From: Planctomycetota bacterium | GTDB taxonomy: Bacteria > Planctomycetota > Phycisphaerae > Phycisphaerales > UBA1924 | Direction: 5' to 3' | Length of the DNA: 48,752 nucleotides | Assembly: GCA_024276195.1 (NCBI GenBank) | Contig: JAJRXR010000045.1 | Span: forward strand, 1 to 48,752 | Shown here: positions 4,611 to 44,211 of the stretch, piece by piece | Numbering within the stretch: position 1 is the stretch's first letter | Layout: each line of letters starts with the position of its first letter | Program-made: the position numbers and the translations under genes | The notes under the pieces: model-generated | Told to the model about the DNA's origin: nothing | Seen by the model: the letters and a program-made list of their open reading frames with translations, nothing else | Databases searched by the model: none

Positions 4611-5096
4611 GTGTCAATCTTCATTGTCCTGATCGCCGTCGTTCCACTGAGACTGCTCACGATCCGCCGAAGGATGAAGCAGGGTTCGGAGCTGCTCTGC
4701 CGGGACTGCCGGTACAACCTGGCGGGGCTCGATGCGAGCGCACGCTGTCCCGAATGCGCCGGGCGATTGCGTGGTATCCGTTCCACAACTATCAAACTCT
4801 CGTACCGGGCCGATGTGTTCTTCGGGCTTGTGTGCGTGATGATCGTCGCGACTCTGGCGCCGTACGTTGCAGACCCGCTCTGGATGTGGTTCTACCGCAC
4901 GCTCCAGCCATTCCCGTTCACACCCCGACCCGCGTACATCAACACGGGCGGAAGCCGCGATTTCTCGGAGTTCACTTTCCTCTTGGGCGTGACGCTCTCC
5001 CTCGGCGTCTACCTCGCAAGCCTGCTGCCATCATCCAGAGCATGGCTCCCGATCGCGCTCTTCGTGCTCGCGTCGCCCGGGATCATCCTGCTCTAG
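4611..5096 (+). CDS. Zinc-ribbon membrane protein, cut short by an in-frame TAG
   Basis: The 161-residue product has an N-terminal hydrophobic segment and then a short zinc ribbon of the planctomycete CRDCRYNLAGL...CPEC type (about residues 30-53). Further hydrophobic segments follow (VFFGLVCVMIVATLAPYV, FLLGVTLSLGVYLASLL, and AWLPIALFVLASPGIILL just before the stop). The GTG start at 4611 is preceded by GGAAG with 5-base spacing. The TAG at 5094-5096 falls in what looks like the middle of a membrane protein. The same frame stays coding-like to a TGA at 5262-5264, overlapping the start of surE. The function is unknown; it is probably an integral membrane protein with a cytoplasmic zinc ribbon. 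Confidence 0.7.
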   Translation: MSIFIVLIAVVPLRLLTIRRRMKQGSELLCRDCRYNLAGLDASARCPECAGRLRGIRSTTIKLSYRADVFFGLVCVMIVATLAPYVADPLWMWFYRTLQPFPFTPRPAYINTGGSRDFSEFTFLLGVTLSLGVYLASLLPSSRAWLPIALFVLASPGIILL

Positions 5097-5264
5097 ATCG
5101 GGATCCAGTGGGAGATCGGATCGGTCCGCTGGAACGACTTTGTCCCCCAGATCGCGGGGCGAGTTCTCGTCATTGAGCTGGTTCTGACCTCGGGCGCCGC
5201 CGTTGCAAGGCCCATGCTTGGGCACTTTCGAGGCTACGCTCAACGACAATGCGCATCCTCCTGA
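5097..5264 (+). other. In-frame continuation of the zinc-ribbon gene after TAG
   Basis: After the TAG the frame runs 55 codons to TGA with mostly G/C third positions. It encodes a polar linker (IGIQWEIGSVRWNDFVPQ), a hydrophobic segment (AGRVLVIELVLTSGAAVARP) and a basic tail. That is a normal end for a polytopic membrane protein, so the TAG looks like a nonsense change or a read-through site, not the original end. The frame would overlap surE by 16 bases. There is no other gene in this stretch. Confidence 0.55.
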
Positions 5265-6046
5265 CCAACGACGACGGCATCGGCGCCCCGGGCATCATCG
5301 CCCTGCACGACGCGATCAGCGATCTGGGCGAGGTGGTGGTTGTCGCGCCCAAGACGGTCCAGTCCGCCACCAGCCACGGCATCACCTACAACCAGCCGCT
5401 GATGGTCTCGCAGGTCCGCGTCACGCCCACCATGGGCGGGACCGCTGTGGACGGCAGGCCCGCCGACTGCGTCAAGCTCGCCCTGACCGCCCTCTGGCCC
5501 GACCGCTTCGGGCAGGAGCAGCGCCCGGATCTGGTTATCTCGGGCATGAACGCCGGCGCCAACTGCGGGATCAACGTGATCTACTCGGGCACCGTCGCCG
5601 CCGCGATCGAGGCGGCCTTCCTGGGCGTGCCCTCGATCGCCGTCTCCCTGCTGCTCGCCGGGGGCGACACGGACTACGAGGCTGGCGCCATGCACGCCCG
5701 GCGGGCCATCGACGCCGTCCTGGCAGGGGGGGCGCTCAACGCCCACGAGTGCCTCTCGATCAACATCCCCAAAACCGAGCGGGGCGACCCCCAGGCCCAG
5801 GACCAACGCAAAATCCGGGTCTGCCCCATGAATGTCCACGCCCTTGTGGACAAATACGAGCACAGGCACACCCCCAACGGCGAGCCCTACTACTGGGCCT
5901 CGGGGCACGGGCTCGACTTCCGCGAGACGGACGAGGGGACGGACGTGCACGAGTTGATGAACGGGCGCATCACCTTGACACCGCTGCACTTCGATCTGAC
6001 GTGCCGAAGCGGGCTCGAGCGTTGGAACGCCCGGATTCGCGGCTAG
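5249..6046 (+). CDS. surE: 5'/3'-nucleotidase SurE
   Basis: The 265-residue product starts MRILLTNDDGIGAPGI, the SurE signature with the metal-binding Asp pair. It continues with VVVAPKTVQSATSHGIT and VISGMNAGANCGINVIYSGTVAAA, the conserved active-site region. SurE is a divalent-metal-dependent phosphatase that dephosphorylates nucleoside monophosphates and acts in stress survival. Its length is normal for the family. The gene ends with TAG at 6044-6046. Beyond it, the same frame runs into the next gene out of frame, so this TAG is a genuine stop. The start overlaps the read-through frame of the zinc-ribbon gene, which suggests an ancestral two-gene operon. Confidence 0.96.
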   Translation: MRILLTNDDGIGAPGIIALHDAISDLGEVVVVAPKTVQSATSHGITYNQPLMVSQVRVTPTMGGTAVDGRPADCVKLALTALWPDRFGQEQRPDLVISGMNAGANCGINVIYSGTVAAAIEAAFLGVPSIAVSLLLAGGDTDYEAGAMHARRAIDAVLAGGALNAHECLSINIPKTERGDPQAQDQRKIRVCPMNVHALVDKYEHRHTPNGEPYYWASGHGLDFRETDEGTDVHELMNGRITLTPLHFDLTCRSGLERWNARIRG

Positions 6047-6215
6047 AAGCCCCGAAACGGGCCTGATGGGCGCCCTTTAGGGTTTTCACCTGTATTCTTG
6101 AGAAAGCCCCAAGACCACACGCGCAATTTCTGCGCGTCTGGCTACCATCGCCCCATCGGTCGCCGCGGGCGGCTGGCCTCCGCGGGCGGCACGCCTGCGT
6201 CGCAGGAGACCCCCC

Positions 6216-7526
6216 ATGTTCACGGATTCCCCCCGTCTTTGCATGATCGGTGCGCGCTCACTCTCTGTTGTTGTACTCGCCTGTGCGGGCGTCCAGGCCC
6301 AGACCTGCCCCCCGCTGCCCGACGCCTCGGGCGTGTTTGTCTTCGAGGATCTGGGCAACCCGGGCAGGAGCTACTCGATCGACCCGGGGCAGGCGTTCAC
6401 GCCCGATCGGCGGCCGGTGGCTGTTGTCTCCCCCTTCAACGGGAGCTACTCCGACACCAACCCGATGGGCTGGGTCGGGTGGTTCCGCAACCCCGAGACG
6501 AGCGGGCCTGAGCTGGTCCAGCGCCTCGACGACGCCTGGGACGCGGGCTTCCGGCGCATCGTCATCAACCGCCCCGGCGGCATCCTGCGCAACAACGACA
6601 TGGTACAGATGTCAATGTTCTACTACCTCGAGCCGGCGCGCAGGCAGGCGTACTCCGTCCACATGCGCAGCTGGATCATCGAGAAGCGCGCCATCGACCC
6701 GAGCCTCGAGGTCGGGGTCTTCATCGGCTCGCGCCACAACTCGCCCTGCACGCCCTGCCTCGAGCCCGGCGCCGACCTGACGAGCACCTCTGATTGCACC
6801 GACGACCCCAACTACCTGCCCGGGTGGCAGGGGCGCCTCGACGCCGCGACGCGGCGCAGCGCCGAGTGGACCTTCCAGAACACCCACCCGTACCTCTACT
6901 CGGGCGTCGATGCGCTCTGGTTCGATTCCGCAAGCCTGCGCGGCAACACCACCGGCGCCATCTCCATGCGCGACTCCATCCTCGCCCTCCAGCACAACCC
7001 GGACTACGCGGGCGTACACATCGGGGGTGAGGCCGTGCCCGAGGGGGTCGTCGTCGATGGGCAGTGGCGCCCCAACCCGGCTGTGCTGCAAGCGCCCTGG
7101 GTCGCCCTGCACCGCTTCTTCCTGCAGAACAGCCGGGCGGGCGAGGTGTATGACCCGCAGACCACCGAGGTCGGCGTCGCCTTCATGAAGCCCGACGTCA
7201 ACCCCGTCTACGACATCCGCGACATGGCCGACTTCCGCGACCGGGGCTACGTCCTCTGGTCCTGGCGGGCGTTCTCGTTCGACTTCATGCAGCGTCTGTA
7301 TGACGGCGATAACAATGAGTTCTACGACAGCGTCGTCCGCGAAGGAACCCTCGCCGATTTCAACGGCGACGACCGCGTTGACACCCGCGATCTTCACGAC
7401 TTTCTCGAGCGTATCACCGCGCCGCAACCGCCCCTGCGCCCGTCGATCTGGGACGGCGACGTCAACAACGACGACCACCGCGATTTCGCCGACGTGCTCT
7501 ATTATCTGGGTGTGTACGGCGGCTGA
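6216..7526 (+). CDS. Secreted protein with dockerin-like C-terminal repeats
   Basis: The 436-residue product has a signal peptide (hydrophobic SLSVVVLACAGVQA ending near residue 28). A large domain of about 330 residues follows, with motifs suggestive of a TIM-barrel-like fold (FRRIVINRPGGI, LEVGVFIGSRHN, GVDALWFDSASL) but no family I recognise. The C-terminus has two EF-hand/dockerin-type repeats, DFNGDDRVDTRDLHDFLE and DGDVNNDDHRDFADVLYYL, which bind calcium in the dockerin family. Four cysteines cluster around residues 173-190. In planctomycetes such tails are frequent on exported proteins and need not indicate a cellulosome. The second dockerin-like protein at 29911-31038 has a comparable plan. 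A strong terminator follows. The catalytic role is unknown. Confidence 0.8.
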   Translation: MFTDSPRLCMIGARSLSVVVLACAGVQAQTCPPLPDASGVFVFEDLGNPGRSYSIDPGQAFTPDRRPVAVVSPFNGSYSDTNPMGWVGWFRNPETSGPELVQRLDDAWDAGFRRIVINRPGGILRNNDMVQMSMFYYLEPARRQAYSVHMRSWIIEKRAIDPSLEVGVFIGSRHNSPCTPCLEPGADLTSTSDCTDDPNYLPGWQGRLDAATRRSAEWTFQNTHPYLYSGVDALWFDSASLRGNTTGAISMRDSILALQHNPDYAGVHIGGEAVPEGVVVDGQWRPNPAVLQAPWVALHRFFLQNSRAGEVYDPQTTEVGVAFMKPDVNPVYDIRDMADFRDRGYVLWSWRAFSFDFMQRLYDGDNNEFYDSVVREGTLADFNGDDRVDTRDLHDFLERITAPQPPLRPSIWDGDVNNDDHRDFADVLYYLGVYGG

Positions 7527-7541
7527 GGCGGCGCACGGAAA

Positions 7542-7563
7542 CGGCCGTACGTCAGTACGGCCG
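7542..7563. repeat. Perfect hairpin CGGCCGTAC-GTCA-GTACGGCCG
   Basis: A 9-bp perfect stem with a 4-base loop lies 16 bases after the stop of the dockerin-like gene. It lacks its own T-run and sits just upstream of a second hairpin that has one. It may protect the 3' end of the mRNA or be part of a composite terminator. Confidence 0.5.
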
Positions 7564-7592
7564 CCCGGAGAAAAAGAGAGAGTTCCTCACGA

Positions 7593-7628
7593 ACGCCCCG
7601 CGCTCCCGCGCGGGGCGTCGTATTTTTT
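7593..7628 (+). terminator. Rho-independent terminator after the dockerin-like gene
   Basis: A 10-bp GC-rich stem (7593-7602 with 7609-7618) and a 6-base loop are followed by CGTATTTTTT. It lies between the convergent secreted-protein gene and the HDOD gene, whose TAA stop is at 7630. Confidence 0.85.
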
Positions 7629-7629
7629 C

Positions 7630-8511
7630 TTAGATCATCCCGTCGAGCTCTTCGACCTCTTCGGCGAGCTTGATCTTGAGCATCTCGATCTGCTCGGCGC
7701 CGAGCTTGAGCACGTCGCGGACATCCGCAGGGATCTCGGCGGTGTCCATGTCGAGGCGGAATCGTCCGACGACCTCCGCCGCGAGGCTGTCGGCGGCCGC
7801 GACGACGCACACGAGCGTGCGCTTCTCCTCGGGCGCCTCCATCGGTCGGTGGTGGAAGCCGGTGACGGTGGCGAAGGGCGCCGGGAACTTCCACTTGGTG
7901 CACAGGGCGGAGCCGAAGTCCTGGTGGTTGGCGCCGAAGACGCTGTCCTCGACCTCGAGCATGTTCAGTGTGGGCGTCCCGTCCGGCCCCGGGCAGACCT
8001 TCTCGACCACCTCGATGAGCTTGTTCCGGTCGAACTGCATCTCGACCATGATCCCGATGTCGTGGATCAGGCCCGCGAGGTACGCCTCATCGCCCAGCCC
8101 AAGCTTGAGCGAGTCGGAGATGAGCTTGCTGCCCGCAGCGACTGCGTTGGAGTGGACCCACAGGTCCTTGGCGCAGAAGCTGGGCGTCAGCTCGCCGCCG
8201 CGGAAGAGCTTGGCGAGGCTGGCCGCGATGGCGATGTTCTTGACCGCGTTGAGCCCGAGCATGACGATCGCCCGGTTGATCGAGGCGATCTGCCCGGGCA
8301 AGCCGTAGAACGAGCTGTTGACGACCTTGAGGATACGGCTGCACAGCGCCGGGTCGCCCGAGATGACCTCGTGCAGATCCTGCGCGGTGGAACTCGGGTC
8401 CTCAACGAGGTCGATGATCTTGAGCGTGATCTCAGGGAGCGTGGCGATGTGGCTGATCTCGCCGATCGCGCCGGTGACAACTTGCTCTCTCTGCTCGGTC
8501 GAAACAGCCAT
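7630..8511 (-). CDS. HDOD-domain signalling protein
   Basis: The 293-residue product is a single HDOD domain, the catalytically inactive relative of HD-GYP phosphodiesterases. Seen motifs include LPEITLKIIDLVEDP, ISGDPALCSRILKVVNSSFYG, INRAIVMLGLNAVKNIA and LAGLIHDIGIMVEMQ. HDOD proteins act in bacterial signalling, often linked to c-di-GMP, motility and chemotaxis. The ATG is preceded by GAAAGGAAG, a good ribosome binding site. It follows the neuC gene on the same strand after 154 bases, so it may be part of, or independent from, the nonulosonate operon. The motility link fits the flgM and Maf-like genes nearby, but this is inference. Confidence 0.9.
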   Translation of the reverse strand: MAVSTEQREQVVTGAIGEISHIATLPEITLKIIDLVEDPSSTAQDLHEVISGDPALCSRILKVVNSSFYGLPGQIASINRAIVMLGLNAVKNIAIAASLAKLFRGGELTPSFCAKDLWVHSNAVAAGSKLISDSLKLGLGDEAYLAGLIHDIGIMVEMQFDRNKLIEVVEKVCPGPDGTPTLNMLEVEDSVFGANHQDFGSALCTKWKFPAPFATVTGFHHRPMEAPEEKRTLVCVVAAADSLAAEVVGRFRLDMDTAEIPADVRDVLKLGAEQIEMLKIKLAEEVEELDGMI

Positions 8512-8665
8512 GGGTCTTCCTTTCGGATCTGGACCCCAGGCTCATCGGACCAGCATCCCCTCTACTTGGGCTCGACACCCGCAATCCGCCGAGAATGCTC
8601 GCCGCACCGCCCAGCCCGCTCGCCCGCATCACGCCCCCGCCCCCGCCCGGGTCCGAGAACTCGCG

Positions 8666-9850
8666 TCAGTACGCGCAGTGTTTGCGGAGCAGGGCTGTGT
8701 CTCGCGGGTCGATCTCGGACAGCGCCGCCGCGGCGCGCACGCCGGCGACCCCATCGCCGAACGGATGCCCGAACGGCGGCGTAAGCGACCTCGCCGCATC
8801 GAGCCCCTCGCGGATCGCATCGGCGTCCGACGCACAATGAACCACGTTGCTCCCGTGCTCGCGCCCGCGCTGGCGGGCGCCGATGTTCAGCGCCGGGAGC
8901 CCCAGAGCCGCCGCCTCGATCAGCCCGCACGAGCTGTTGCCCACGATCGCCCCGCCCGAGGTGCCCAGGCGGCGCAGCAGCGCCAAAAACTGACTGCGCT
9001 CAAGGTGCTTGACGACCTTGACGTTGGAACCGGCGCCCAGCAGCGCCCGCAGGATACCCTCGCGCCCCGGATCATGGTTCGGGTGCAGCGCGAGCGTGCG
9101 CAAACTGCCCAATGCCTCGAGCGCCTGGCTCGCCGCGTGCTCTTCCGCCTCGTCCGGTCGCCCGATCGGGTGCTTGAGAAAAACAATCTCGGGCGAGCCG
9201 AGCTCCGCGAACGCGTCGTCGCCCATCGCCTCGACTCGATCGAGCCCGTCGATCGCTGGCGAGCCGATGATGCGGACGTGCTCGGGGCGCTCGCCCAGGC
9301 GCCGAATCCGATCGGCGCTCTGCTCGCTCGCAGCCAGGTGCAGGTGGCTGAGCTTGGTGATCGCGTGTCGCATCGCCTCGTCGGCAACCCCCTCGGCCCG
9401 GTCCCCGCCGTGGATATGGCAGACCGCGATCCCGCCGACGCTTGCCGCGCTCGCCGCAGCGAACGCCTCGATCCGGTCGCCCAGCACAACCACCCACTCG
9501 GGCGCCAACCGCTCAAAGCTCCGCCCGAACCGCGCCACACCCTTGCCCAGCGCCTCGACATCCGCCCAGCGCCCGGTCCGCCCGACGGTCTGCATGGGCA
9601 CAGAATCCGCGACCTCGAAGTGTTTTTTTACTTCGCGGAACGTTTCCGCCGGCTGGATCAGGTGCGAGCCGGCGGCGATCACGAGCAGCCCGAGCTCGGG
9701 TCGATCGCGGACCGCCTCCATGACTGGTTTCAACAGCCCGAACTCGGCCCGCGTGCCCGTGACGACCGCGACGCGCCGGGGCGAATCCGGGCTCGGGCGT
9801 CGATCGCGGGCGAGCTCGTCCTTGGGATCTGTCCAGTCGTCGCCGATCAT
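8666..9850 (-). CDS. neuC: UDP-N-acetylglucosamine 2-epimerase (hydrolysing), NeuC/LegG type
   Basis: The 394-residue product belongs to the UDP-GlcNAc 2-epimerase superfamily: VAVVTGTRAEFGLLKPVMEA at the N-terminus, WVVVLGDRIEAFAAA, CHIHGGDRAEGVADEAMRHA and GNSSCGLIEAAALGLPALNIGARQRGRE. The HGGD...E..RH arrangement and TRAEFG are typical of hydrolysing NeuC/LegG enzymes, which release ManNAc or a related 2-epimer for nonulosonic acid synthesis. The first 25 residues are charged and poorly conserved, so a start nearer VAVVTG is possible. It is the last sugar gene of the minus-strand operon, separated from neuB by 147 bases full of palindromic repeats. Which sugar is made (sialic, legionaminic or another) cannot be decided. 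Confidence 0.9.
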   Translation of the reverse strand: MIGDDWTDPKDELARDRRPSPDSPRRVAVVTGTRAEFGLLKPVMEAVRDRPELGLLVIAAGSHLIQPAETFREVKKHFEVADSVPMQTVGRTGRWADVEALGKGVARFGRSFERLAPEWVVVLGDRIEAFAAASAASVGGIAVCHIHGGDRAEGVADEAMRHAITKLSHLHLAASEQSADRIRRLGERPEHVRIIGSPAIDGLDRVEAMGDDAFAELGSPEIVFLKHPIGRPDEAEEHAASQALEALGSLRTLALHPNHDPGREGILRALLGAGSNVKVVKHLERSQFLALLRRLGTSGGAIVGNSSCGLIEAAALGLPALNIGARQRGREHGSNVVHCASDADAIREGLDAARSLTPPFGHPFGDGVAGVRAAAALSEIDPRDTALLRKHCAY

Positions 9851-9880
9851 GCGCTGCTTTCCTGGTGGAGTCTGCCCCGG

Positions 9881-9913
9881 TCCTGGTGGAGCCGGTTTCC
9901 AACCGGCTCGGGC
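9881..9913. repeat. REP-like palindrome (GAGCCGGTT...AACCGGCTC)
   Basis: The arms GAGCCGGTT and AACCGGCTC surround TCC. The element is preceded by TCCTGGTG, as in the copy at 2994-3023. A partial duplicate of CCTGGTGGAG lies 20 bases earlier (9861-9870). It lies between neuB and neuC. Confidence 0.65.
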
Positions 9914-9951
9914 CTTTCGGTCCCGATCACACGGGCTTCGAGATGAACGCC

Positions 9952-9969
9952 GCGGGATTGCAATCCCGC
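9952..9969. repeat. Perfect 18-bp palindrome GCGGGATTGCAATCCCGC
   Basis: This is a fully self-complementary 18-mer with a TTGCAA centre in the neuB-neuC spacer. It belongs to the same architectural class as the other dispersed palindromes in this window. Confidence 0.6.
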
Positions 9970-9972
9970 AGA

Positions 9973-9994
9973 CCGGGGGGCTCCAGTCCCCCGG
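9973..9994. repeat. Palindrome CCGGGGG...CCCCCGG with CTCCAG loop
   Basis: Seven-bp arms plus a G-T pair close a CTCCAG loop. It lies 3 bases beyond the 9952-9969 palindrome and 4 bases after the neuB stop, so it may act as a 3' stabiliser or weak terminator within the operon. Confidence 0.6.
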
Positions 9995-9997
9995 CTT

Positions 9998-10843
9998 TCA
10001 CGCCAGATCCTCCTCGCGCAATGGCATGTCCGCCTCGACGCCGCGCGCGAGCCTGCGCCCGATGATCTCGTCGAGGCGGAATGGTTCGATGCCTGTGCCC
10101 GGGCGTTTGATGGTGAGATCCTCGTGCGTCAAGGTCTCTCTGATATAGATCCGCCGAGTCGTTGCCAGGCTTTGACGAGACACTTCTCGAACATCCCGCT
10201 CGCAATCAAGAACTACTTTCTCGATCGGTACATTTCGCTCTTCGAAGTAGGCGCGAGTTGATGGACGTACAGTGCGTAAGGGAAACTTTAACGGATTGTG
10301 CCATGGTCGTGCGTCGGGATGGCCGTACTTGACCTCACCCACATAGTCCTCGAATATCTCCGGAGGGAGCGAGGCTTCGTGGTCAGGTCCAGCCGCATTC
10401 CGATCGTGCGTGACATGCTTCTCTACGATTGCCGAGCCGATGTCAGCCATCATGTAAGGGACCTGTAGCCCAGGCGTATGATCGCTGTATCCGGTAGGGA
10501 TGCCATCATCGATCACCTCTTGTATAGCGCGGACCCCGCCGATCCCATCCTCCCATGCCGGATAGCAACTCACACACTGCAGCACCGCCAGCCGATCCCG
10601 GATCCCATCCAACCACCCGACCGCGCGCACCACCTCGTCGAGCGTGCTCGCCCCAGTACTCACGATCAGGGGGTTTCCCGTCGCCGCGAGCGCCTCGAGC
10701 AACGGCCTGTTAATCACATCCGGCGATGCGCTCTTGTACGCGTCCCATTTGAGTTCCTGCGCCCGCTCGACCAGCTCAACACTGAACACCGTCACAATCG
10801 CGTGAATACCCAGCTCGTGCGCACGATCGACAACCAACGCCAT
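9998..10843 (-). CDS. neuB: N-acylneuraminate synthase NeuB, C-terminal part after in-frame TAG
   Basis: This 281-residue reading frame is the larger part of a sialic-acid synthase. It carries most of the catalytic barrel (KSASPDVINRPLLEALA, LIVSTGAST, LQCVSCYPAWEDGIGG, GYSDHTPG and IVEKHVTHDRNAAGPDH). An antifreeze-like SAF domain at the C-terminus begins RRIYIRETLTHEDL. NeuB condenses phosphoenolpyruvate with ManNAc or a modified hexosamine. It is directly continuous, in the same frame, with the N-terminal part at 10844-11107; only the TAG at 10844-10846 separates them. The ATG starting this part abuts the stop (TAGATG), so reinitiation is possible. The DNA of about 10130-10540 looks less GC-rich than its neighbours, a possible recombination mark. 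Confidence 0.85.
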   Translation of the reverse strand: MALVVDRAHELGIHAIVTVFSVELVERAQELKWDAYKSASPDVINRPLLEALAATGNPLIVSTGASTLDEVVRAVGWLDGIRDRLAVLQCVSCYPAWEDGIGGVRAIQEVIDDGIPTGYSDHTPGLQVPYMMADIGSAIVEKHVTHDRNAAGPDHEASLPPEIFEDYVGEVKYGHPDARPWHNPLKFPLRTVRPSTRAYFEERNVPIEKVVLDCERDVREVSRQSLATTRRIYIRETLTHEDLTIKRPGTGIEPFRLDEIIGRRLARGVEADMPLREEDLA

Positions 10844-11107
10844 CTAATCGAGTGACAACTCCAACCTGCGCAGCATCGCGACCGGGTCCGTCTCGCCCGC
10901 AGCTTTCTGGTACGCCGCGAGCTTCGAGGCCTTGCTCAGCAGCCTGTCGGTCTCGAAGTACTGCAGCTTGACCGCGTCGGCGCCCGCCTTGGCCGCGGCC
11001 TCGGTCAGCTCGAGCGCGCGCGACACCTCGCCATCATGGTTCACGCCGATCTCGGCGATCACATACGGCGGCTGCCCAGGACCGATCTCGCGTGTGCCGA
11101 TCTTCAC
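10844..11107 (-). CDS. neuB: N-acylneuraminate synthase NeuB, N-terminal part ending at TAG
   Basis: The 87-residue frame starts MKIGTREIGPGQPPYVIAEI and continues with GVNHDGEVSRALELTEAAA and AGADAVKLQYFETDRLLSK, the classical NeuB N-terminus with the first barrel strands. It stops at TAG after RRLELSLD, exactly where homologues continue with an acidic or amide residue and the next helix. The full-length protein would be 369 residues, normal for NeuB. The GTG start at 11105-11107 overlaps a TGA in the neuA frame as GTGA. A truncated barrel should be inactive unless the stop is read through or the two pieces assemble. Confidence 0.8.
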   Translation of the reverse strand: MKIGTREIGPGQPPYVIAEIGVNHDGEVSRALELTEAAAKAGADAVKLQYFETDRLLSKASKLAAYQKAAGETDPVAMLRRLELSLD

Positions 11108-11115
11108 CGTTGAGC

Positions 11116-11868
11116 CTAGCCCGTCCGCCGCCAGGCGCGCGTCGGGTGATGCTCGGCGCCGCCCAGACGCTCTCGCAGAATCGCGTCCGCGACGAGCTGG
11201 TCCACGCGCGAGTCGATATCCACCACCTCGCCCTCGCCCGTGAGCACACCCCCGCAGCGCGCTCCCAGGAACGCGTGCGGCCCCGGGCGCACGCCCTCGA
11301 TCCGACCGAACAGCGCATCAAGCGTGACGACGAGCACACCACCATCGGGGATGTGGGCCGGGGGCAGATCCTGACGCCGATACACACCGGTATTGAGCAC
11401 CTGGCCCTCCCACGGCTGGACACCGCCCGCGTCATCAACGCGCGCCGTCCACCACGGGTGATGCTTGCCCACGGGCGCGTAGCTCTGCACGCTGTCAAAG
11501 GCGCTGTCCAGGCGTTCGAGCGCCCGGTCAATCAGCCCCTCGGGCCTGACCGGAACATTCGCGTACAGGACGACAACCGGGCCTTGCACCCAGCCGATCT
11601 TCTCGATCGCGTGGCGCGCGGCGCTGTCAATGGTCGCGTCGTCCGAGGCGAGCTTCTCCGGGCGTTCGACGCCCTCGCCGCCCATCGCCGACCCGATCTC
11701 AAGCACGCGCGGATCGTCACTGGAAACAACCACGCGCGAGACGCGCCCGCTCGACAGGGCGGCGTCGATGGTCCAGGCGATGCACGGTCGCCCGCCGACG
11801 CACGCGGTATTCTTCCCGGGCAGGCCCTTGGAGCCGGCCCGAGCCAGGATGACCGCGCACGCGCTCAC
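11116..11868 (-). CDS. neuA: CMP-N-acylneuraminate cytidylyltransferase
   Basis: The 250-residue product has the NeuA/KdsB-like start CAVILARAGSKGLPGKNT, the CTP-binding loop, followed by RVVVSSDDPRVLEIG, VVVLYANVPVRPEG and VDIDSRVDQLVADAI. It activates a nonulosonic acid with CTP for transfer to an acceptor. The GTG start overlaps the stop of the upstream fusion gene as GTGA, indicating translational coupling. The frame ends at TAG (11116-11118), 8 bases before the neuB start. Three codons later it meets a TGA that overlaps the neuB GTG, mirroring the upstream junction. Usual family motifs are present, although LYANVPVRP replaces the more common LQPTSPLR. Confidence 0.92.
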   Translation of the reverse strand: MSACAVILARAGSKGLPGKNTACVGGRPCIAWTIDAALSSGRVSRVVVSSDDPRVLEIGSAMGGEGVERPEKLASDDATIDSAARHAIEKIGWVQGPVVVLYANVPVRPEGLIDRALERLDSAFDSVQSYAPVGKHHPWWTARVDDAGGVQPWEGQVLNTGVYRRQDLPPAHIPDGGVLVVTLDALFGRIEGVRPGPHAFLGARCGGVLTGEGEVVDIDSRVDQLVADAILRERLGGAEHHPTRAWRRTG

Positions 11869-14800
11869 GCCGCCCTCCCCGAGGGTGTCGCCCGGACGGG
11901 CTTGGGCTCGATCAATGCCTCGCCCCGCTCACGCGCAACGCGCCTGGCGCTGCTCCACAGCTCGCCCAGCGCGACGGCGCCGCCGATGCGCGCGCCGTCG
12001 CCCCCTGCGACGGAGCCGTCCGAGAGGATGGTGATTGACTCGCGTTCGATCTGCGCCGCGCGCCAACGTGGCAGGGGGAGCGCCCGGATGCGTTCGCCGG
12101 GCATGGCGTGCGATGGTGGGTCGATAACGCTGGCGCCGCCCGCCATGATCCATGTGTCGTGGAACCGCTCGATCTCGGGCAGCGCGGTTGCGCAGCGCGT
12201 GATCCGGGGCACGATCCACGGGCGTTCGATGCCCGCGTACGTCCCGAGCTCGCTCCGGCGTTCGATCATCCGCTTGACGCCGCTCTCGACTGCGCCGAAC
12301 CGGTCCGTCCCCGTCAGCGCCCGGTATGTTTCGCCCGTGCTCGCGAGCAGGTCCACGCTGACGACGTGCACGCCCGAGTTCAGCAGCGCGTCGATGGCGT
12401 CCTCGTCGTCGCCCAGGCGGGTCAGGTCGGTGCGCAGGTGGATGCCGGCGAAGCCGATCTCGCGGGCCATGCGCACGATCTCGAGCGATCTGGGGTGCAT
12501 GAGCGGGTCGCCAGCGCCGTGGAGCGTCAGCGTCGCGTCCCGCGCCCCGGACGCGATCTCGGTGAGCATCGTGTGGATCGACGCGATCGGGAGCATCTCG
12601 CGCTCGATCGGCTCGGCGCTGCCGCGCAGCTGCGCCCCCCACTGACCGCCGAGCAATCGCCCGGAGCAGAGCTCGAGCGTCACATGCCTGGGCAGCTCGC
12701 GCGTCACCCGGGCCATCGGCGCGAGCGCCGCGGTGAGCTCATCGAGCCCGACACCGATCGCGTCGCGCCCGAGCCCCGTCAGCGCCGCCGCGATCTGGCG
12801 CCGGCGCTCGTCGGTGTCCGGGATCGCGCGCACGCACAGCGAGCGGAGGGCAGCGGGGATCTGGACGCACACGGGCTTGGCGATCGGGTCGCTCTGCGGC
12901 GCGATGGGGAGGTAGCCGACCAGAGCGCCGATCGTCGCCAGCGACCCGGCCTGCTCGCGCGCCTCGCTCAGCGAGGCGACCCCCGAGCGGTCGAGCAGCA
13001 CGCCGCACAACCCGGGGGGCGCCTGCGTGAACACGATCCGCAACGAGTCCGGCGCCGAGCGGTAGCGCTGCGCTACTTCTCCGGTTAGCCCGGGGTCCAC
13101 CAGCGCCCAGTCGTCGCCGACAAAGATCGCCGCGTCAATGTTTCGTCGTTGCATGACGTCGAGCGCCATCCTGGGCTCGAACGCCTCATCCGCCGCGACA
13201 AGCCCGCCGATCCCGCCGCGCCAGCTTGCGCCGCTCCAGACCCGCCCGCTCCCGACGCCGCGCCGGCGCGCTTCAACTTCGCCCGCGTCCACCCGCTCGA
13301 TCGCCACGCGCGGATCGGCGCCCGCATCGCCAACGAGCGCGCGCACGCGATCGGCGCTGCCCGCGAGCAACACGATCTCATCGAGCCCCTGCGCCCGCAA
13401 GAGGCGCTCGACACACATCCGCAGCGGGTTCATGCCCGCGACCAGCTCGCGCGAAAGATCACGCGGCGCGCCGAGCCCGCCGATGGTCTCGCAGACCGGC
13501 ACGAACGCCGCGACGCGCTTTCTCGCGTTTTTCCCACCATTTACGGGCGTTTCCGGGGTCGACGCGGGGTCGCTCGTGAGCTTGGGCGCCCGCCCGCTGT
13601 GCGCCTCGATCGAGGCGTCGAGCAGGCGCACCAGCGCCTCACTCGCCTGACGGATCCACGAGACGTTCGTGATGTCTCGCTCGATCTGGCGGCGCTGGCG
13701 GTCGAGCGGGCTCTCGCTTTGCGACACCTCGATCGCGCGATCCGCCCGCATCCGGTTGAGCGCGCCGGTCTGGTTGATGAACTGCGCCAGGCGGAACGCC
13801 GGCTGGAGCGCTGTCACCTTGTCGCGCAGCGTGTTGACCCGCGCAATCAACTGGTTGACCCGACCCTGGTCGTGCTGGGCCTTGAGCATCTGCCCGAGCG
13901 TCGCCTCTGTCTCCTGGCTCATCGCGCCGATGCACCGCGCGTCCGTCCGGATCTGCTCGAGTCGTTCTCTGACCTCTTTCGTCCGCCCGCCGGCGCTCGC
14001 GCCGGGCGCCGAAGCGGTCTCGCCGATCAGGGGCGATCCGATCAAGGGCGATCCGGGCGGGGCGAACTGTTCGAGCGCCTCGCTGAGCGTCATCGGCTCG
14101 GCCGAGCGTTTGATTGCGCCGCCCTCGCTCGTGTCGATCGTGCGCAGGCCCCTGGCCTGGTCCTGGGCGAACATGGCCTCGAACTGCGCCAGGTAGGTCG
14201 CCATCTGCTCGTCGGTGTAGACCTCGCCCCCGCCAGAAGCCGGCACGCGGCGCAGCAGGGAGCGCATGCGCACGATCCGCTCCCATTCAAGCGTTTCGAG
14301 CGTGCGGAACTCGCCCAGCTCGGGCGCCCAGACCTCGTGGATCGCGGCGCCGGCGCTGTAGTACTGCCCGTCCGTGAACGCCAGATCCTGCCCGACCAGG
14401 ATCACCGGGTCGCACCCGAGCGAGCGTGCAAAGGAGTGCGCCAGGTGCGCCACCGTCGCCCCGGGCTCGATGCGACCCATGTCCCGCGCCAACCCATGCC
14501 CGAGCGTTTCGTCGAGCAGGTCATCCCCCGGCGTGCGCACAACGCCCGGGAAAGCATCCAGAATTGCCGGGTTCGCCTTGGGCTCGGCGATCAGCGTCAC
14601 ACCCTCAACATCCTCGCTCGTGAGCCCCTCGTAAAACCGGCGGCTGATCTCGTGGTGGTCCAGCGCCGTGACATAGTGCGGCTTGATCCCCCGGGCGAGC
14701 AGCGCCTTGAGCACTGTCTGCACCGCGATGATCACGCATCGCTCGCGCACGCCGGGCTGGGCGAGCAGGTCCATGGCGCGCTCGAGGCTCGGCCCGGCGC

Positions 14801-15560
14801 TGACGACGATCGCCGGGCGCCCGCGCTGTGAATCGCGCAGGTCCGCGATGCCATCGCTTGCCGCGTAGTGGTCCACGTTCATCAGCAGGTTGCGCAGGGT
14901 GGTCTCGCCCTGGACGAGGGTCGTCACCACGCTGGTGCGCACCGCCGAGAGCACGCGCGTCAGGTTCTGGCAGAACGTGTCGCTGGCGTCACCCAGGCGA
15001 GCCCGGCTCGGGGGGTGGGGCGCGATGCTGAACCCGAGCGCGACCACGCCCTCGAGCCCACTCATCGCTGCGGACATCGCCGGGCGGTCCTCGGCGTTGC
15101 TGAGAATTACCAGGTTCGTGCGCTCGATCCATGCGCTGTGGTCGATGCGTTCGAGCACGGAACGCAGCAGCGCGATATCCGGCTCGAAGCAGAGAATCAC
15201 ACCCGTCTTGCCCAGGCGCTGCGCTATCTCGCGGACATGGAGCCCGAGCCCGAAGCCCAGCACCGCCACGCCCGCCGACGACTCGACATCGACAGACTCT
15301 CCCAGACGCTTCGCCTCGGTCAGCGGCCTGCGTGCGCTCGCGAGCAGGCGCCCGCCCCCGTCGGCCGCGAGAATCCGGGCGCTGAGCGCATCCTCGTCGG
15401 TCTCGATGAACTCGACATCCGTCCGCGCCGGCGTCGCGCGGATCTGCTGGCACAGGGCCTCGCTGGTCCGCGAGAGGGCGAGCAGGTTCCGCTCCAGAAC
15501 GCCCCGGGTGTCGTCGCCCCCTTGATATGCGCTCTCGAGCCCGAAGCTGAGGATGTCCAT
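11865..15560 (-). CDS. Maf-like / nucleotidyltransferase-like / radical-SAM-like fusion protein
   Basis: The 1231-residue product has three regions. Residues about 90-510 resemble Maf (motility accessory factor; DUF115, MptE-like), with VAVLGFGLGLHVREIAQRL and GRPAIVVSAGPSLERAMDLL. Maf proteins glycosylate flagellin with nonulosonic acids. Residues about 520-665 are helical. Residues about 683-900 resemble a sugar nucleotidyltransferase (FVPVCETIGGLG, NPLRMCVERLLRAQGLDEIV) but lack the canonical GGxGxR loop. Residues about 955-1200 have a radical-SAM/SPASM outline (HVTLELCSGRL, LTLHGAGDPLMHP, ITILSDGSVAGGD, LGELWSSA), yet the CxxxCxxC cluster and SPASM cysteines are absent. It resembles spirochaete spiro-SPASM proteins in the last two regions. 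The ATG at 15560 has GGAGG eight bases upstream. It is the first gene of the neuABC operon, so it probably transfers the sugar. Confidence 0.8.
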   Translation of the reverse strand: MDILSFGLESAYQGGDDTRGVLERNLLALSRTSEALCQQIRATPARTDVEFIETDEDALSARILAADGGGRLLASARRPLTEAKRLGESVDVESSAGVAVLGFGLGLHVREIAQRLGKTGVILCFEPDIALLRSVLERIDHSAWIERTNLVILSNAEDRPAMSAAMSGLEGVVALGFSIAPHPPSRARLGDASDTFCQNLTRVLSAVRTSVVTTLVQGETTLRNLLMNVDHYAASDGIADLRDSQRGRPAIVVSAGPSLERAMDLLAQPGVRERCVIIAVQTVLKALLARGIKPHYVTALDHHEISRRFYEGLTSEDVEGVTLIAEPKANPAILDAFPGVVRTPGDDLLDETLGHGLARDMGRIEPGATVAHLAHSFARSLGCDPVILVGQDLAFTDGQYYSAGAAIHEVWAPELGEFRTLETLEWERIVRMRSLLRRVPASGGGEVYTDEQMATYLAQFEAMFAQDQARGLRTIDTSEGGAIKRSAEPMTLSEALEQFAPPGSPLIGSPLIGETASAPGASAGGRTKEVRERLEQIRTDARCIGAMSQETEATLGQMLKAQHDQGRVNQLIARVNTLRDKVTALQPAFRLAQFINQTGALNRMRADRAIEVSQSESPLDRQRRQIERDITNVSWIRQASEALVRLLDASIEAHSGRAPKLTSDPASTPETPVNGGKNARKRVAAFVPVCETIGGLGAPRDLSRELVAGMNPLRMCVERLLRAQGLDEIVLLAGSADRVRALVGDAGADPRVAIERVDAGEVEARRRGVGSGRVWSGASWRGGIGGLVAADEAFEPRMALDVMQRRNIDAAIFVGDDWALVDPGLTGEVAQRYRSAPDSLRIVFTQAPPGLCGVLLDRSGVASLSEAREQAGSLATIGALVGYLPIAPQSDPIAKPVCVQIPAALRSLCVRAIPDTDERRRQIAAALTGLGRDAIGVGLDELTAALAPMARVTRELPRHVTLELCSGRLLGGQWGAQLRGSAEPIEREMLPIASIHTMLTEIASGARDATLTLHGAGDPLMHPRSLEIVRMAREIGFAGIHLRTDLTRLGDDEDAIDALLNSGVHVVSVDLLASTGETYRALTGTDRFGAVESGVKRMIERRSELGTYAGIERPWIVPRITRCATALPEIERFHDTWIMAGGASVIDPPSHAMPGERIRALPLPRWRAAQIERESITILSDGSVAGGDGARIGGAVALGELWSSARRVARERGEALIEPKPVRATPSGRAA

Positions 15561-15696
15561 CCCGCGTTCCTCCGAGGGGTATCCGCGTGTGCGCACAGCA
15601 CACCCGCCCCGAATCCGCGGGGCGCTGCTGGTCAGGATCGGCCCAGAGGCGAGCCCGCCTGCAACAATGCCCGGTCGCGGGCGTAAGGAGAGATGG

Positions 15697-16320
15697 ATGC
15701 AGCTCAGTGACCTCACGCCGCAGATCGCCCCGCTGCCCGAGCCCGGGCTGGTCGAGCGCCTCACGCTCGAGTCGCCCGGCGGCGTCGTCGTCTCGCTGGT
15801 CGTCATCGGGCTGGCTGGGGCGGTCATCCTCAACGCGCGCGGGCGTCTGAAGCTCGGGCTGATCGTCCTCGCGGTGGCGTGGGCGCTCGCGGGCGCCAGC
15901 TTCTTTATCGCGAGCACCGTCCAGACCCCGCGCGAGGCGCTCATGGCCCGGACGCGCGAGCTGGTCCGCGCTCTGGCGGAGGTCGATTCCGGGGCGATGG
16001 GCGAGATTCTCAGCCCCGACGCGGTCGTCGAGGTCCGCAGGGTCAAGACCTTCCGCGGGCGCGAGTCGATAATCCGTGCCGCCGAGATGTACGTCGGCGG
16101 CTCGACCCGGATCGAATCGCACCGGGCGCCCGAGATCCAGGCGGTGATCGACGGCGCCAACGCGGCCCGCACGCAGGCCCGCGTGCGTCACTCCGGACCG
16201 GGGATCCCGCCGGCGAGCTGGTGGCGGATCGAGTGGTACCGCCCGAGCGAGGGCGAGCCCTGGGTCGCGGTCGAGGTGAAGCCGCTCTGGATCGCGGGCT
16301 TTGCGAGCTTTGAGGGCTGA
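15697..16320 (+). CDS. Membrane protein with NTF2-like soluble domain
   Basis: The 207-residue product has two adjacent hydrophobic segments (GVVVSLVVIGLAGAVIL and LGLIVLAVAWALAGASFFIA, about residues 26-68). A soluble domain of about 135 residues starts at TPREALMARTRELVRALAEV. Its pattern (helix, DAVVEVRR..FRGRESI, a long curved sheet with WWRIEWYRPSEGEPWVAVEV) suggests an NTF2/SnoaL-like fold. No catalytic residues can be assigned. The ATG at 15697 has an AAGGAG box 5-9 bases upstream. It is divergent from the Maf-like fusion gene with about 136 bases between the two starts. The role is unknown. Confidence 0.7.
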   Translation: MQLSDLTPQIAPLPEPGLVERLTLESPGGVVVSLVVIGLAGAVILNARGRLKLGLIVLAVAWALAGASFFIASTVQTPREALMARTRELVRALAEVDSGAMGEILSPDAVVEVRRVKTFRGRESIIRAAEMYVGGSTRIESHRAPEIQAVIDGANAARTQARVRHSGPGIPPASWWRIEWYRPSEGEPWVAVEVKPLWIAGFASFEG

Positions 16321-21148: not shown

Positions 21149-21637
21149 CTACCGCCTTGCGCCGGTGAAGTCGATTGTGCCGGCGACGTTCATCGGCGCT
21201 TCCGGCTGGCGGACGCCCGTCTCAAAGAGCGTCTCGCTGAGCTTGCCGGGTGTGACATAGCTGACCATCCCCGTCAATCGGTACGGCACCGGATCGCGAC
21301 GCGACGCGAACGACATCGGCACCAACGCGGGCAGCTCGAACGAGTGCGTCGAATACTCGCTCAGCGTCGTCTCGGGCGACCGGACGCCCGAGTAGACCAC
21401 CTCCCCATCGAGCGAGAGGGTGTAGCTCGCCCGCTTGAGCGGCAGCGGGTCCGGGTTGTCATTGGTCGCGTCGATCGTGAGGATCAGCTCGAGCTCGCCG
21501 TCGCGCTCGGTCATCGCCGTCACGCCCACGGGCTCGAAGCTCGGCGCCTTCGGGCTGGAGCACCCGGTCAACAAAGCCAGGGCGCCGCCAAGCGCGATCA
21601 GCCGAAGCGTCGGTCGTGATTGTGCTCGCTCACCCAC
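21149..21637 (-). CDS. LEA-type (water-stress/LEA14-like) lipoprotein
   Basis: The 162-residue product has a lipoprotein signal peptide (LRLIALGGALALLTGC, lipobox LTGC at about residue 26). A single beta-sandwich domain follows, with the LEA-2 pattern: ELELILTIDATNDNPDPLPL, KRASYTLSLDGEVVYSG, then a second strand set ending in FTGARR. Bacterial LEA-2 lipoproteins are periplasmic or outer-membrane proteins linked to desiccation and stress; the role here is inferred. The frame ends with TAG; a TGA follows five codons later. The gene is isolated between the two arms of the inverted composite repeat. Confidence 0.8.
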   Translation of the reverse strand: MGERAQSRPTLRLIALGGALALLTGCSSPKAPSFEPVGVTAMTERDGELELILTIDATNDNPDPLPLKRASYTLSLDGEVVYSGVRSPETTLSEYSTHSFELPALVPMSFASRRDPVPYRLTGMVSYVTPGKLSETLFETGVRQPEAPMNVAGTIDFTGARR

Positions 21638-36172: not shown

Positions 36173-36173
36173 G

Positions 36174-37499: not shown

Positions 37500-37568
37500 G
37501 GAGAGCCTCCGGGGGTGAACCCAGAGGCTACCACGGGGCGCCAGTTTCTCGCAGCACCGCCGCCCGAA

Positions 37569-37796: not shown

Positions 37797-37843
37797 GACG
37801 ATCTCCCTGTGGGGCTTGTGGCAATCAGCGGCACAAACACACG

Positions 37844-37882: not shown

Positions 37883-37950
37883 CGTTCCCGCCCGGCACAC
37901 GCGCCCCAGCCCGCACGCGGGGACTGGTTCAAGGTCCGATTGGTGTCGGG

Positions 37951-39171: not shown

Positions 39172-39345
39172 CAGCAGAGTCTACCGCATGATCGTTGTTT
39201 GTCCGGGTCTGTTTCGGCAAGAATACACATTCCCGGTGCGAGGGATATCGCAGCGGGAGGGCATACAACCCTGGGAGGCAGGCGTGCGGCTTGCCCCCTC
39301 AAGAACCGTTCATATCCGACCCTCACGAGCTCAGGAGAGACCCGA

Positions 39346-41021: not shown

Positions 41022-41653
41022 GCACAAGCAACGCTCACAATCAGCACCACGATCAGCGTCTGGACCGGGGCCTGCGCGCGATCGGCGAGCATCTGCCCGA
41101 GCCGTCGCCAAGCCCGGACGTGTGCGCGCGCCTGACTCGCATGGTCGAGGGCGGGCAGGAGCCGGCGCCGATCAGTAAAGAGGCGCCCGCCTCCTGGGGC
41201 GGGCGTTTGCACCGTGTTGTCGGGGCGTTGGCGGCGGTGGTGGTGCTCGCGGGGCTGGTGTGGATGGTGCTGACGCCGCAGGCGCCGGAGCCGCGCGAGA
41301 TCGACGGCGCCGGAACCGGCGCGAGTATGAAGCTGGTGAGCTTTCATCACGACAAGTGCCCCGTTGCGCGCGAGATGGACCCGCGGTTCAAGGAGCTTGC
41401 CGGGCGGTGTCGCTCGCGCGAGCTGACGGTCCAGCGCGTGGACATGACCGCCTGGGCGCCGGGCGAGGCGCGTGAGCGGCTCGAATCGCTCGGGCTCGGG
41501 AGCGTGCTGACCGAATGCCAGATGCCGATGCTCACGGGCGTGGTGATGGTGGTGGACGAGGCGGGGTGCGTGATCGCGCAGGCCCGGGGCGGCGAGCCGC
41601 TGGATCAGGTCGAGCGGGCGCTGGGCGATGATGTCCCCGAGTCGAGCCCGTAG
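41018..41653 (+). CDS. Membrane protein with thioredoxin-like domain, probable anti-sigma partner
   Basis: The 211-residue product has a cytoplasmic N-terminus of about 63 residues (C36) and one transmembrane helix (VVGALAAVVVLAGLVWMVL, about 67-85). A periplasmic domain contains SFHHDKCPVAREMDPRFKEL (C114). This is a thioredoxin-like position with one active-site cysteine only: CPVA in place of CxxC. Other cysteines are C131, C167 and C184. It overlaps the sigma gene by ATGA. The topology is that of an anti-sigma factor, although no zinc-binding ZAS motif is seen. It ends with TAG. The last 49 bases overlap the end of the convergent sulfotransferase gene. Confidence 0.7.
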   Translation: MSTSNAHNQHHDQRLDRGLRAIGEHLPEPSPSPDVCARLTRMVEGGQEPAPISKEAPASWGGRLHRVVGALAAVVVLAGLVWMVLTPQAPEPREIDGAGTGASMKLVSFHHDKCPVAREMDPRFKELAGRCRSRELTVQRVDMTAWAPGEARERLESLGLGSVLTECQMPMLTGVVMVVDEAGCVIAQARGGEPLDQVERALGDDVPESSP

Positions 41654-42504
41654 CGTTCGATATCGCTGGCAAAAACCGCGAGAGCCAGGGCGCGCTGCTC
41701 GGATGTAAGAAAGTCCGAGTACGACCCGTCAGTCGCGGCGTGAACGAATCCGGGGCCAAACTGGGCGCCGATCTGCTCGGGCGAGGCCAACGCGAGCGCG
41801 TCGTCAATCTGTTGGCCCGTGACATCCAGGCCCAGACCCTCGAAAACTCGCGAGAGTTGGGGTCGCGCGTCACGCTTGAGGTCCTTATAGAGCAGCCTCA
41901 ACCCGCTTGCCCCGCCAAGCGCCGCCGACCACGCCTCGGCGTGCGATGACCACGTCCCGAAGCCCATCGCCTCGAACGGCACATGCCCACGCGCTGCGAT
42001 GAAGGACTCGATGAAAGGCTCAACAAGCCCGAGGCGGCGCGCGAGTTCAAGATCGCCGACCGGCTTTCCATCGCTGGTGAGCTGACCAGACCAGAGCAGG
42101 AACCGGAAGACGCTCGCCATCACGTCCAGCGGCCCACGGAGCACGCCAACGACAAGATCCGCCCGCTCGAGCACGCCCGGCGCGTCGCGCTCGATTGCGC
42201 CCGGCGTGCGGTGCGTCTTGAGCACAAGCGACGAGGCGACCGACCACCGGGTGAGTTCATCAAGACGCCCGGTCGCGATGAAGCGGTCCAGGTCGTGGTA
42301 GATCCCGCGCCGCCCGCGCGAGAGCGGGTTGATCCATCCGACGCGCCCGAGCAGCACATGCTCGAGCGTGCGCCCGATCCAGTTGCTCCCGGAGCGCGGG
42401 TACGACGCGATGAGCACGAGGCGGCGGTCGCCCGGCGAGAACTCGGGCGGGCCTTGAAGATGGGTCCAGTCCTGCTCTGTCGAGTGGCGTTCGGTCACGG
42501 GCAA
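41605..42504 (-). CDS. Sulfotransferase-domain protein
   Basis: The 299-residue product has the PAPS-binding 5'-PSB loop SYPRSGSNWIGRTL near residue 36, SSLVLKTHRTPG, and the 3'-PB-like stretch ADLVVGVLRGPLDVMASVFR. It then has LRLLYKDLKRDARPQLSRVF and a C-terminal helix. It transfers sulfate from PAPS to an unknown alcohol or amine acceptor. It differs from the TPR-sulfotransferase at 3054. The start could be TTG 42504 (GAGG 9 bases upstream) or GTG 42498. It is in the same frame as the upstream histidine kinase, separated only by that gene's TAG and four codons. It overlaps the thioredoxin-like gene tail-to-tail by 49 bases. Confidence 0.85.
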   Translation of the reverse strand: MPVTERHSTEQDWTHLQGPPEFSPGDRRLVLIASYPRSGSNWIGRTLEHVLLGRVGWINPLSRGRRGIYHDLDRFIATGRLDELTRWSVASSLVLKTHRTPGAIERDAPGVLERADLVVGVLRGPLDVMASVFRFLLWSGQLTSDGKPVGDLELARRLGLVEPFIESFIAARGHVPFEAMGFGTWSSHAEAWSAALGGASGLRLLYKDLKRDARPQLSRVFEGLGLDVTGQQIDDALALASPEQIGAQFGPGFVHAATDGSYSDFLTSEQRALALAVFASDIERYGLDSGTSSPSARST

Positions 42505-42519
42505 GGATAGAAGCCTCGG

Positions 42520-43890
42520 CTAGAGGCGCGAGATGAACCCGTCGGCGGGCTTGTCCTCGGCGGTCGCGCTCGGGTCGTGACGCGAGTCCAGATCCGCCGG
42601 CAGGAAGACACGGAAGGCCGAGCACTGACCGACCTTGGTCTCGACGCGGATGCGCCCCTGGTGCTCATCAATAATCCGCTTGGTCACGGCCAGGCCCAGG
42701 CCCGTCCCCTTGAGTCCCTTGGTGGTGTGGAAGGGCTCGAAAATCCACTTGAGGCGGTCCTTGGGGATGCCCGGGCCGTTGTCGAGCACGCTCAGCTCCG
42801 CCGTCGGTGTGCCGACCTGCCCGGGCAGGACCTCGTGGAACAGAACCTTCACCGTGACGGCGCCCGTCTTGGGCTCGACCGCCTCGACCGCGTTGCCCAG
42901 CAGGTTCATCACCGCCTGATGGATCATGTTCGGATCGATCGCGATGGGGGGCATCTCCGGGTCGGAATCGACGATCAGCGCGATCTCTCGCTCGGCGCAG
43001 CGCGCTTCGAGCAGCTCGGCGCACTCTTCGACGAGCGGGCCGAGCTTGGTCAGCTCGAGCTCGACGGTCCGCTGGCGGCTGAAGGCGAGCATGTTCATGG
43101 TGAGCGAGACGATGCGGTCGAGGTTGCGCTTGAGGATGTCCCAGCCGCCGGAGGCGATTTTCAGGTCGTCCTTGCCCAGGCCCATCTCGACGACGTCCGC
43201 CCCGCCCCGCAGGCCCTGGAGGATGTTCTTGATCGAGTGCGACAGGCTGGCGACCGTCTCGCCGATGGTCGCGAGGCGTTCCGAGTGCATGCGCTCGGCG
43301 ATCGCCTCGGCGTTGGCCAGCGCCAGGCCCGTGTGCCTGCCGATGGCGTTCATGAGCGCGAGCTGTTCGGGGGTGAAGGTGTAGTTGGCGATGGACGAGT
43401 CGATGTAGATGGCGCCGAAGGTTTTGTCGCGGAAGTTGATGGGCGAGCAGATGGCGCTGCGGATCTGGTAGCGCTGGACCGAATCGCCCGACTTGAAGCG
43501 CGGGTCGGTCATGGCGTTGGAGCTGAGCACGCCCTCGCTGTCGCGCAGGGCCGAACGAAGGATCGTGCGCGAGACGTGGATCTTGGCGTCCTGCTCGTCC
43601 TTGGGCGGAGTTCGATACTTGACAGCGGCGGGCTCGAGCTCAGCATCGGGCGTCGAGCCCGTGAGCATGATGACGCCGCGCTCGGGCTTGAACTCCTCAA
43701 AGATCAGGTCCAGCACCCGACCGACCAGCTCAGCGCTGCTGGCACTCTGGCTGGTGATGGTCGTGAGCTGGTAGATCACGCGCAGGTGATCGACCGCGGC
43801 CCGCTGCGGCTCGGGCTCGGCCAGGACCATCGAGTCTTCATTGAGCGAGAGGCGGTGCTCGATCTCCGTGTCCATCTCCCCCGGCTTCAT
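42520..43890 (-). CDS. GAF-domain histidine kinase (C-terminal part of an FHA-GAF-HK)
   Basis: The 456-residue frame has a GAF domain (about 50-205, e.g. FKPERGVIMLTGSTPDAEL and SAICSPINFRDKTFGAIYID). A dimerisation helix with an atypical H-box SLSHSIKNILQGLRGG follows, then a HATPase domain (IHQAVMNLLGNAVEAVEPKT, VLDNGPGIP, KGTGLGLAVTKRI). It is a cytoplasmic sensor kinase without membrane segments. The first available ATG after the upstream TAG is at 43890. The same frame continues upstream through an FHA domain to an ATG at 44211, broken only by TAG at 44119-44121. The stop at 42520 is also TAG. The cognate response regulator is not nearby. Confidence 0.88.
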   Translation of the reverse strand: MKPGEMDTEIEHRLSLNEDSMVLAEPEPQRAAVDHLRVIYQLTTITSQSASSAELVGRVLDLIFEEFKPERGVIMLTGSTPDAELEPAAVKYRTPPKDEQDAKIHVSRTILRSALRDSEGVLSSNAMTDPRFKSGDSVQRYQIRSAICSPINFRDKTFGAIYIDSSIANYTFTPEQLALMNAIGRHTGLALANAEAIAERMHSERLATIGETVASLSHSIKNILQGLRGGADVVEMGLGKDDLKIASGGWDILKRNLDRIVSLTMNMLAFSRQRTVELELTKLGPLVEECAELLEARCAEREIALIVDSDPEMPPIAIDPNMIHQAVMNLLGNAVEAVEPKTGAVTVKVLFHEVLPGQVGTPTAELSVLDNGPGIPKDRLKWIFEPFHTTKGLKGTGLGLAVTKRIIDEHQGRIRVETKVGQCSAFRVFLPADLDSRHDPSATAEDKPADGFISRL

Positions 43891-44211
43891 CAGGCGGACG
43901 ATGTCCGGGGCGCTCCCGGACTCAACCTGCCCGAAGACAAGGACCGTGGCGCCGGCGCGGATCTGGTCGCCCAGCCTGAGTCGGGTGCGCTCGACGATGC
44001 GGACCCCGTTGATGTACGTCCCGTTCTGGCTGTCGAGATCGCGGATCCACCAGGCTCCATCGTCGGGGGTCAGCTCGGCGTGACGCCTGGAGACGGCGTT
44101 GTCCGTGAAGGGCAGGGCCTAGGTCGATCGCCCGATGAGCTGCGGCTCGTTGCCCGGCAGCTCGAAGCGCTTGCCGCTGTCTGGCCCCTGGATGATCTTG
44201 AGTGTGAGCAT
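43891..44211 (-). pseudogene. FHA domain region, interrupted by in-frame TAG
   Basis: From the ATG at 44211 the frame encodes MLTLKIIQGPDSGKRFEL, PQLIGRST, then TAG at 44119-44121. It continues ALPFTDNAVSRRHAEL, WWIRDLDSQNGTYINGVRI and a final strand before the GAF-kinase. GRSxxx...SRRHxxL...NGTYxNG is the textbook FHA phosphothreonine-binding signature, so the TAG lies between two conserved parts of one domain. The intact gene (42520-44211) would encode 563 residues. Either it is a nonsense mutation, an assembly error, or read-through makes the full protein. As it stands, the FHA domain is not made intact. Confidence 0.75.

Follow-up and report, generated by a model that had tools for sequence, protein, structure and literature searches.

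Several genes in the draft genome of an uncultured Phycisphaerales bacterium are interrupted by in-frame TAG codons. The lineage lacks mutY, and these codons probably arose in it by recent point mutation of the G:C>T:A type. The window, i.e. the whole stretch of 48,752 nucleotides that was analysed, is contig C29 of this genome, which comprises 3,036,756 bases in 88 contigs and is estimated to be 91 % complete. MutY removes adenine mispaired with 8-oxoguanine, and without MutY oxidised guanines become fixed as G>T changes (C>A on the other strand). Loss of mutY by deletion would have led to such fixation in this lineage, and in a GC-rich genome the codons most exposed would be GAG and TCG. As both turn into TAG, new nonsense mutations would show as TAG though TAG still terminates translation. 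We infer that the deletion causes the spectrum of the stops, that the mutations exist in the cells and that the loss is recent. The probable cause, the mutY deletion, lies outside the window.

Interrupted genes in the window and in the genome

The three in-frame TAG codons of the original prediction were all found, at 10844-10846, 44119-44121 and 5094-5096. The interruption is established for two of them. The first is codon 88 of neuB (nonulosonate synthase family; 9998..11107, minus strand) and the second lies in a protein of the sensor kinase type with FHA, GAF and HATPase_c domains, all over the Pfam cut-offs (42520..44211, minus strand). When the neuB frame was read with X at the stop, Pfam NeuB covered residues 35-259 and SAF residues 312-368, with the stop at residue 88 inside NeuB, and in the kinase the FHA domain (residues 35-96) spanned the stop at residue 40. 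A neuB match was obtained in 39 of 41 genomes, the present one included, and only the present copy had a stop listed. Three genomes of the same genus (G001-G003) were used for comparison, and in these both genes were intact: their kinase matches had no stop listed, and the copy of G002 was 91 % identical. Among distant kinase matches, those of G013 (TGA), G033 (TGA) and G037 (TAG) had one stop each listed somewhere along the match. The kinase site was Glu in 32 of 32 aligned relative loci (some genomes repeated), while the neuB site was Glu in the six best aligned loci, with GAG in the closest relatives, and held mixed residues across all 32.

The third TAG lies in a zinc-ribbon membrane protein frame (4611..5264, plus strand), for which coding sequence on both sides of the stop had also been claimed. 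That claim stood for neuB and the kinase, supported by Pfam and the relatives, whereas the zinc-ribbon frame was only coding-like in composition on both sides in the codon-usage scan. It had no Pfam family, and no match across the stop in the six relatives searched. The genes flanking it are direct neighbours in the relatives, so there is no orthologue there and the TAG at 5094-5096 may be the real end of the gene. The frame may have been gained in this genome or lost in the relatives. On the minus strand at 8669-16187, neuB is located between genes for a UDP-GlcNAc 2-epimerase, a cytidylyltransferase and an MptE-like protein, an arrangement resembling a nonulosonate surface-sugar cluster.

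To survey the genome, 61 stretches totalling 1,182,642 bases (39 % of its length) were scanned by codon usage for stops flanked on either side by in-frame coding sequence. There were 62 candidates (29 TAG, 24 TGA and 9 TAA), most of them apparently places where one gene ends and another begins; 40 of the 62 were judged so by eye only. Twenty candidates were compared with six relatives in one joined query, and neuB and the kinase were searched separately; OFTM92 and OFTM80 are two Phycisphaerales assemblies related to this genome. In the 39 % sampled, stop-free relatives spanned 12 TAG, 2 TAA and no TGA interruptions. The genes cut by TAG encode TruB, a type II/IV secretion ATPase, a metallo-beta-lactamase-fold protein, a MacB-like permease, a TauE-like protein, a TPR protein, Dxs, an Na/H antiporter, a PLD-like protein and a class V aminotransferase, in addition to neuB and the kinase. 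The absence of genes cut by TAA held for the window only; elsewhere in the same genome TAA interrupts the genes of an alanine symporter and a KDO transferase. The TAA of the latter (L044:8801) adjoins a short repeated stretch absent from the relatives and may therefore differ in origin from the TAGs.

Of 17 proteins tested against Pfam, 14 had a domain extending across the stop; the zinc-ribbon protein, the TPR protein and L042 did not. Three candidates had no relative to compare with, namely the window TAG at 5094, L042 and L041. L042:65-904 is a membrane-like frame with one in-frame TAG and no match in the six relatives. L041:12155-13393 is a DNA methyltransferase frame with one in-frame TAG inside the Pfam domain, and it matched neither the six relatives nor a same-genus genome.

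The same scan over 379,528 bases of G001-G003 gave 9 TAG and 11 TGA candidates, all 20 being gene ends by eye. At the rate of the present genome, the probability of zero interruptions in 379,528 bases is 0.011, and the interruptions here exceed what chance would give. A scan of the present genome with a lower threshold showed no further interruptions by eye. Three TGA candidates and the TAG candidate L180 were dropped as the relatives have stops there too, and likewise the candidate at window position 21258, where the relatives also have TAGs. A codon model trained on the relatives alone chose antisense frames and was replaced by a model of the present genome. Stop lists from comparisons between this genome and the relatives (26 and 23 stops in this genome; 19, 0, 6 and 5 in the reverse and control comparisons) contained many antisense frames and were excluded from the counts.

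Mutation spectrum of the stops and the loss of mutY

A usable sense codon was available in the relatives at 12 of the 14 sites: five Ser, five Glu (TAG), one Glu (TAA) and one Trp. Eleven of the changes were G:C>T:A and one was G:C>A:T, compared to an expected G:C>T:A share of 49 % among the one-step nonsense changes of this genome (p=0.0026). Two Ser sites read TCC in the closest relative, which is two steps away from TAG, and TCG occurs there only in another relative; one Glu site is mixed with Ala. Without these three less clear sites the count was 8 of 9 (p=0.017), and when both sites lacking a usable codon were counted against G:C>T:A it was 11 of 14 (p=0.024). The TAG of the methyltransferase aligns with Tyr in solved relatives, which misfits G:C>T:A; adding it as an exception gave 11 of 13 (p=0.009).

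The codon usage predicts that TAG makes up 65 % of all one-step nonsense changes, 62 % of those by G:C>T:A and 78 % of those in 5-prime-pyrimidine context. The observed 12 of 14 does not exceed these expectations (p=0.085, 0.051 and 0.37, respectively), and the TAG surplus was rejected as a sign of TAG tolerance. The apparent preference for TAG results from codon usage together with the G:C>T:A spectrum.

Searches with a mutY model found the gene at full length in G001 and G002 and in part, at a contig end, in G003. The present genome gave only a 50-bit match, similar to the second, weaker match of G001-G003, which we take to be endonuclease III. MutM was present in all four genomes. In G002 and G001 the gene order is glycosyltransferase, mutY, cdaA and ybbR. 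The distance from the glycosyltransferase to the start of cdaA is 1462 bp in G002 and 478 bp in contig C72 of the present genome, where the interval holds a small frame also seen in G002, presumably NifU-like, and a frame of 28 codons (C72:31741-31827). The end of this stub resembles the MutY C-terminus (67 % identity over 21 residues, E=0.18 taken alone). At this conserved place mutY has thus suffered an internal deletion of about 1 kb, inside contig C72. With no MutY-grade match and a deletion at the locus, mutY is lost or disrupted in this genome. A match of at least 200 bits was found in 57 of 61 genomes of the family. The other genomes without such a match, G045, G058 and G064, are 81, 69 and 66 % complete, respectively. 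Among the 49 family genomes with little contamination and a completeness of 90 % or more, only the present one is without it.

The wider substitutions bear on the age of the loss. Changes specific to the present genome were polarised with G001 as outgroup in 158 genes against G002 and 39 genes against G003, a non-random gene set since the relative stretches were chosen around broken genes. Against G002, the G:C>T:A changes were 245 against 197 at silent positions (odds ratio 1.12, p=0.27) and 90 against 54 at non-synonymous positions (odds ratio 1.37, p=0.087). Against G003 they were 40 to 27 (p=0.069) and 20 to 9 (p=0.042), respectively, and only this small set leans towards an excess. Radical G:C>T:A changes specific to this genome were 9 against 8, and the pairwise radical changes were compatible both with an unselected excess and with none. 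The pairwise silent asymmetry showed no excess of G:C>T:A, and a silent-site excess hinted at by the first 118 genes (154 against 106) was not significant with 158 genes. G:C>T:A dominates the stops (11 of 12) but has no clear excess among all substitutions specific to this genome. As a clear older excess is lacking, a long-standing mutator is unlikely and any mutator state would be recent, with which these comparisons are compatible.

Reading of TAG and alternative explanations

The genetic code looks unchanged, with TAG still a stop. The frame of release factor 1 (RF1) is open and intact, with what we take to be the PAT and GGQ motifs, and that of RF2 is open as well. None of the 44 tRNA genes matched in this genome has a CUA anticodon, PylS had no match over the cut-off, and the 14 matches to selenocysteine tRNA were all below it. 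Since the genome is 91 % complete, a suppressor tRNA or PylS could be located in the missing piece. Of the 674 called genes whose stop could be read, 170 end in TAG, including a few of the interruptions themselves, and surE in the window (5249..6046, plus strand; Pfam SurE) ends in an ordinary terminal TAG, its frame matching the relatives up to its last residue. The original views that TAG is a normal terminal stop here and that a full code change is unlikely were both supported: of the CUA tRNA, PylS, RF1 loss and depletion of terminal TAG that mark TAG reassignment or amber suppression, none was found in the genome, and we dropped code change, suppressor tRNA and pyrrolysine as explanations. 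Phages using code 15, in which TAG is recoded, also have in-frame TAG in several genes (PMC9523058, as far as this source describes them). Unlike in these phages, no suppressor tRNA was found in the present genome, TAG is kept as terminal stop, the density of in-frame TAG is low and other residues are replaced.

Recurrent nonsense mutation, leaky TAG and artefact had all been considered to fit the interruptions, and of these recurrent nonsense mutation fits best. Read-through by a leaky or unknown suppressor, which would make TAG mutations tolerable, agrees with the 12 TAG, 2 TAA and 0 TGA interruptions and with a single-copy dxs which is otherwise intact, but the open RF1, the lack of a CUA tRNA and of PylS over the cut-off, the terminal use of TAG, the two TAA interruptions and a TAG share not above expectation make it very unlikely. 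Slighter still is the chance that a mutY-less lineage with many TAGs, at least one of them in a gene it should need to survive (dxs), lives by read-through via a near-cognate or unassembled tRNA, as an early step towards a changed code. Nor do we attach more than a very small probability to ordinary gene decay, in which unrelated mutations share no cause. Judged by their families, many of the genes affected do look dispensable, but the mutation spectrum shows a skew (p=0.0026), a single stop breaks the otherwise aligned frame of each confirmed gene, and G001-G003 had no such stops by eye.

The main rival to G:C>T:A mutation after loss of mutY is that the stops are consensus errors, with T called, where coverage is thin, for guanines oxidised in the sample or library, and the mutY deletion being coincidental. 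Oxidation also yields G>T (PMC12390751, in the part of this source consulted). The rival keeps this position partly because of dxs, which is cut by TAG, gave no second copy in the search (only a 77-residue piece) and would be hard to explain as broken in a living cell; HMG-CoA reductase was not found in the genome either. A fixed mutation accounts for the broken dxs less well than an artefact, a segregating allele or read-through would. Further in favour of errors, there is no enrichment of the stops beyond the small and unclear excess at missense sites, and a Leu(CAA)-like tRNA (L048:10498-10580; C68:25497-25579), unnamed by ARAGORN, has an anticodon loop one base short. Against this, the longest contigs reach 194 kb, which would rarely be obtained at low coverage, and the assembly is not poor overall, since frameshift-like breaks were not raised (7 and 3 in this genome, compared to 10, 0, 4 and 4 in the reverse and control comparisons). 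Moreover, the mutY deletion lies within a contig, and no other family genome at least 90 % complete lacks mutY. We regard consensus errors as unlikely, although they remain a real alternative to mutation in a mutY-less lineage.

Relation to known mutY mutators

The closest parallel is the Wisconsin outbreak strain of Elizabethkingia anophelis, in which mutY is also disrupted and nonsense mutations are nearly all G:C>T:A. In the sections of PMC5458099 that we draw on, 253 of 290 substitutions are G/C>T/A, as are 45 of 49 nonsense mutations, GAG>TAG included, and the branch before the outbreak has an ordinary spectrum, like that supposed for the present genome before its loss of mutY. The Elizabethkingia case was based on many isolates and reads and its mutY carries an inserted element, whereas here there is one draft genome of an uncultured organism and an internal deletion (PMC5458099, same sections). 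A narrow literature search gave no mutY mutator among Planctomycetes and, for metagenome-assembled genomes, only work on a hydrothermal metagenome.

If mutation after mutY loss is the true explanation, a natural 8-oxoguanine mutator can be recognised from a single uncultured draft genome by the type of its stops together with a missing repair gene. Recoding should then not be read from many in-frame TAGs in a GC-rich genome, where mutation or damage of the G:C>T:A type is expected to produce such a surplus.

Hypermutators of Pseudomonas aeruginosa lacking functional mutY show C>A changes mostly at CpCpN and TpCpN (PMC10625568, in the portion consulted). The GAG>TAG and TCG>TAG changes seen here are necessarily in TpC context, as in that signature, but unlike in P. 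aeruginosa, as that portion describes it, the wider substitutions specific to the present genome had no enrichment by sequence context. Compared with G002, they include relatively more C>T, and MutY does not explain this drift towards lower GC.
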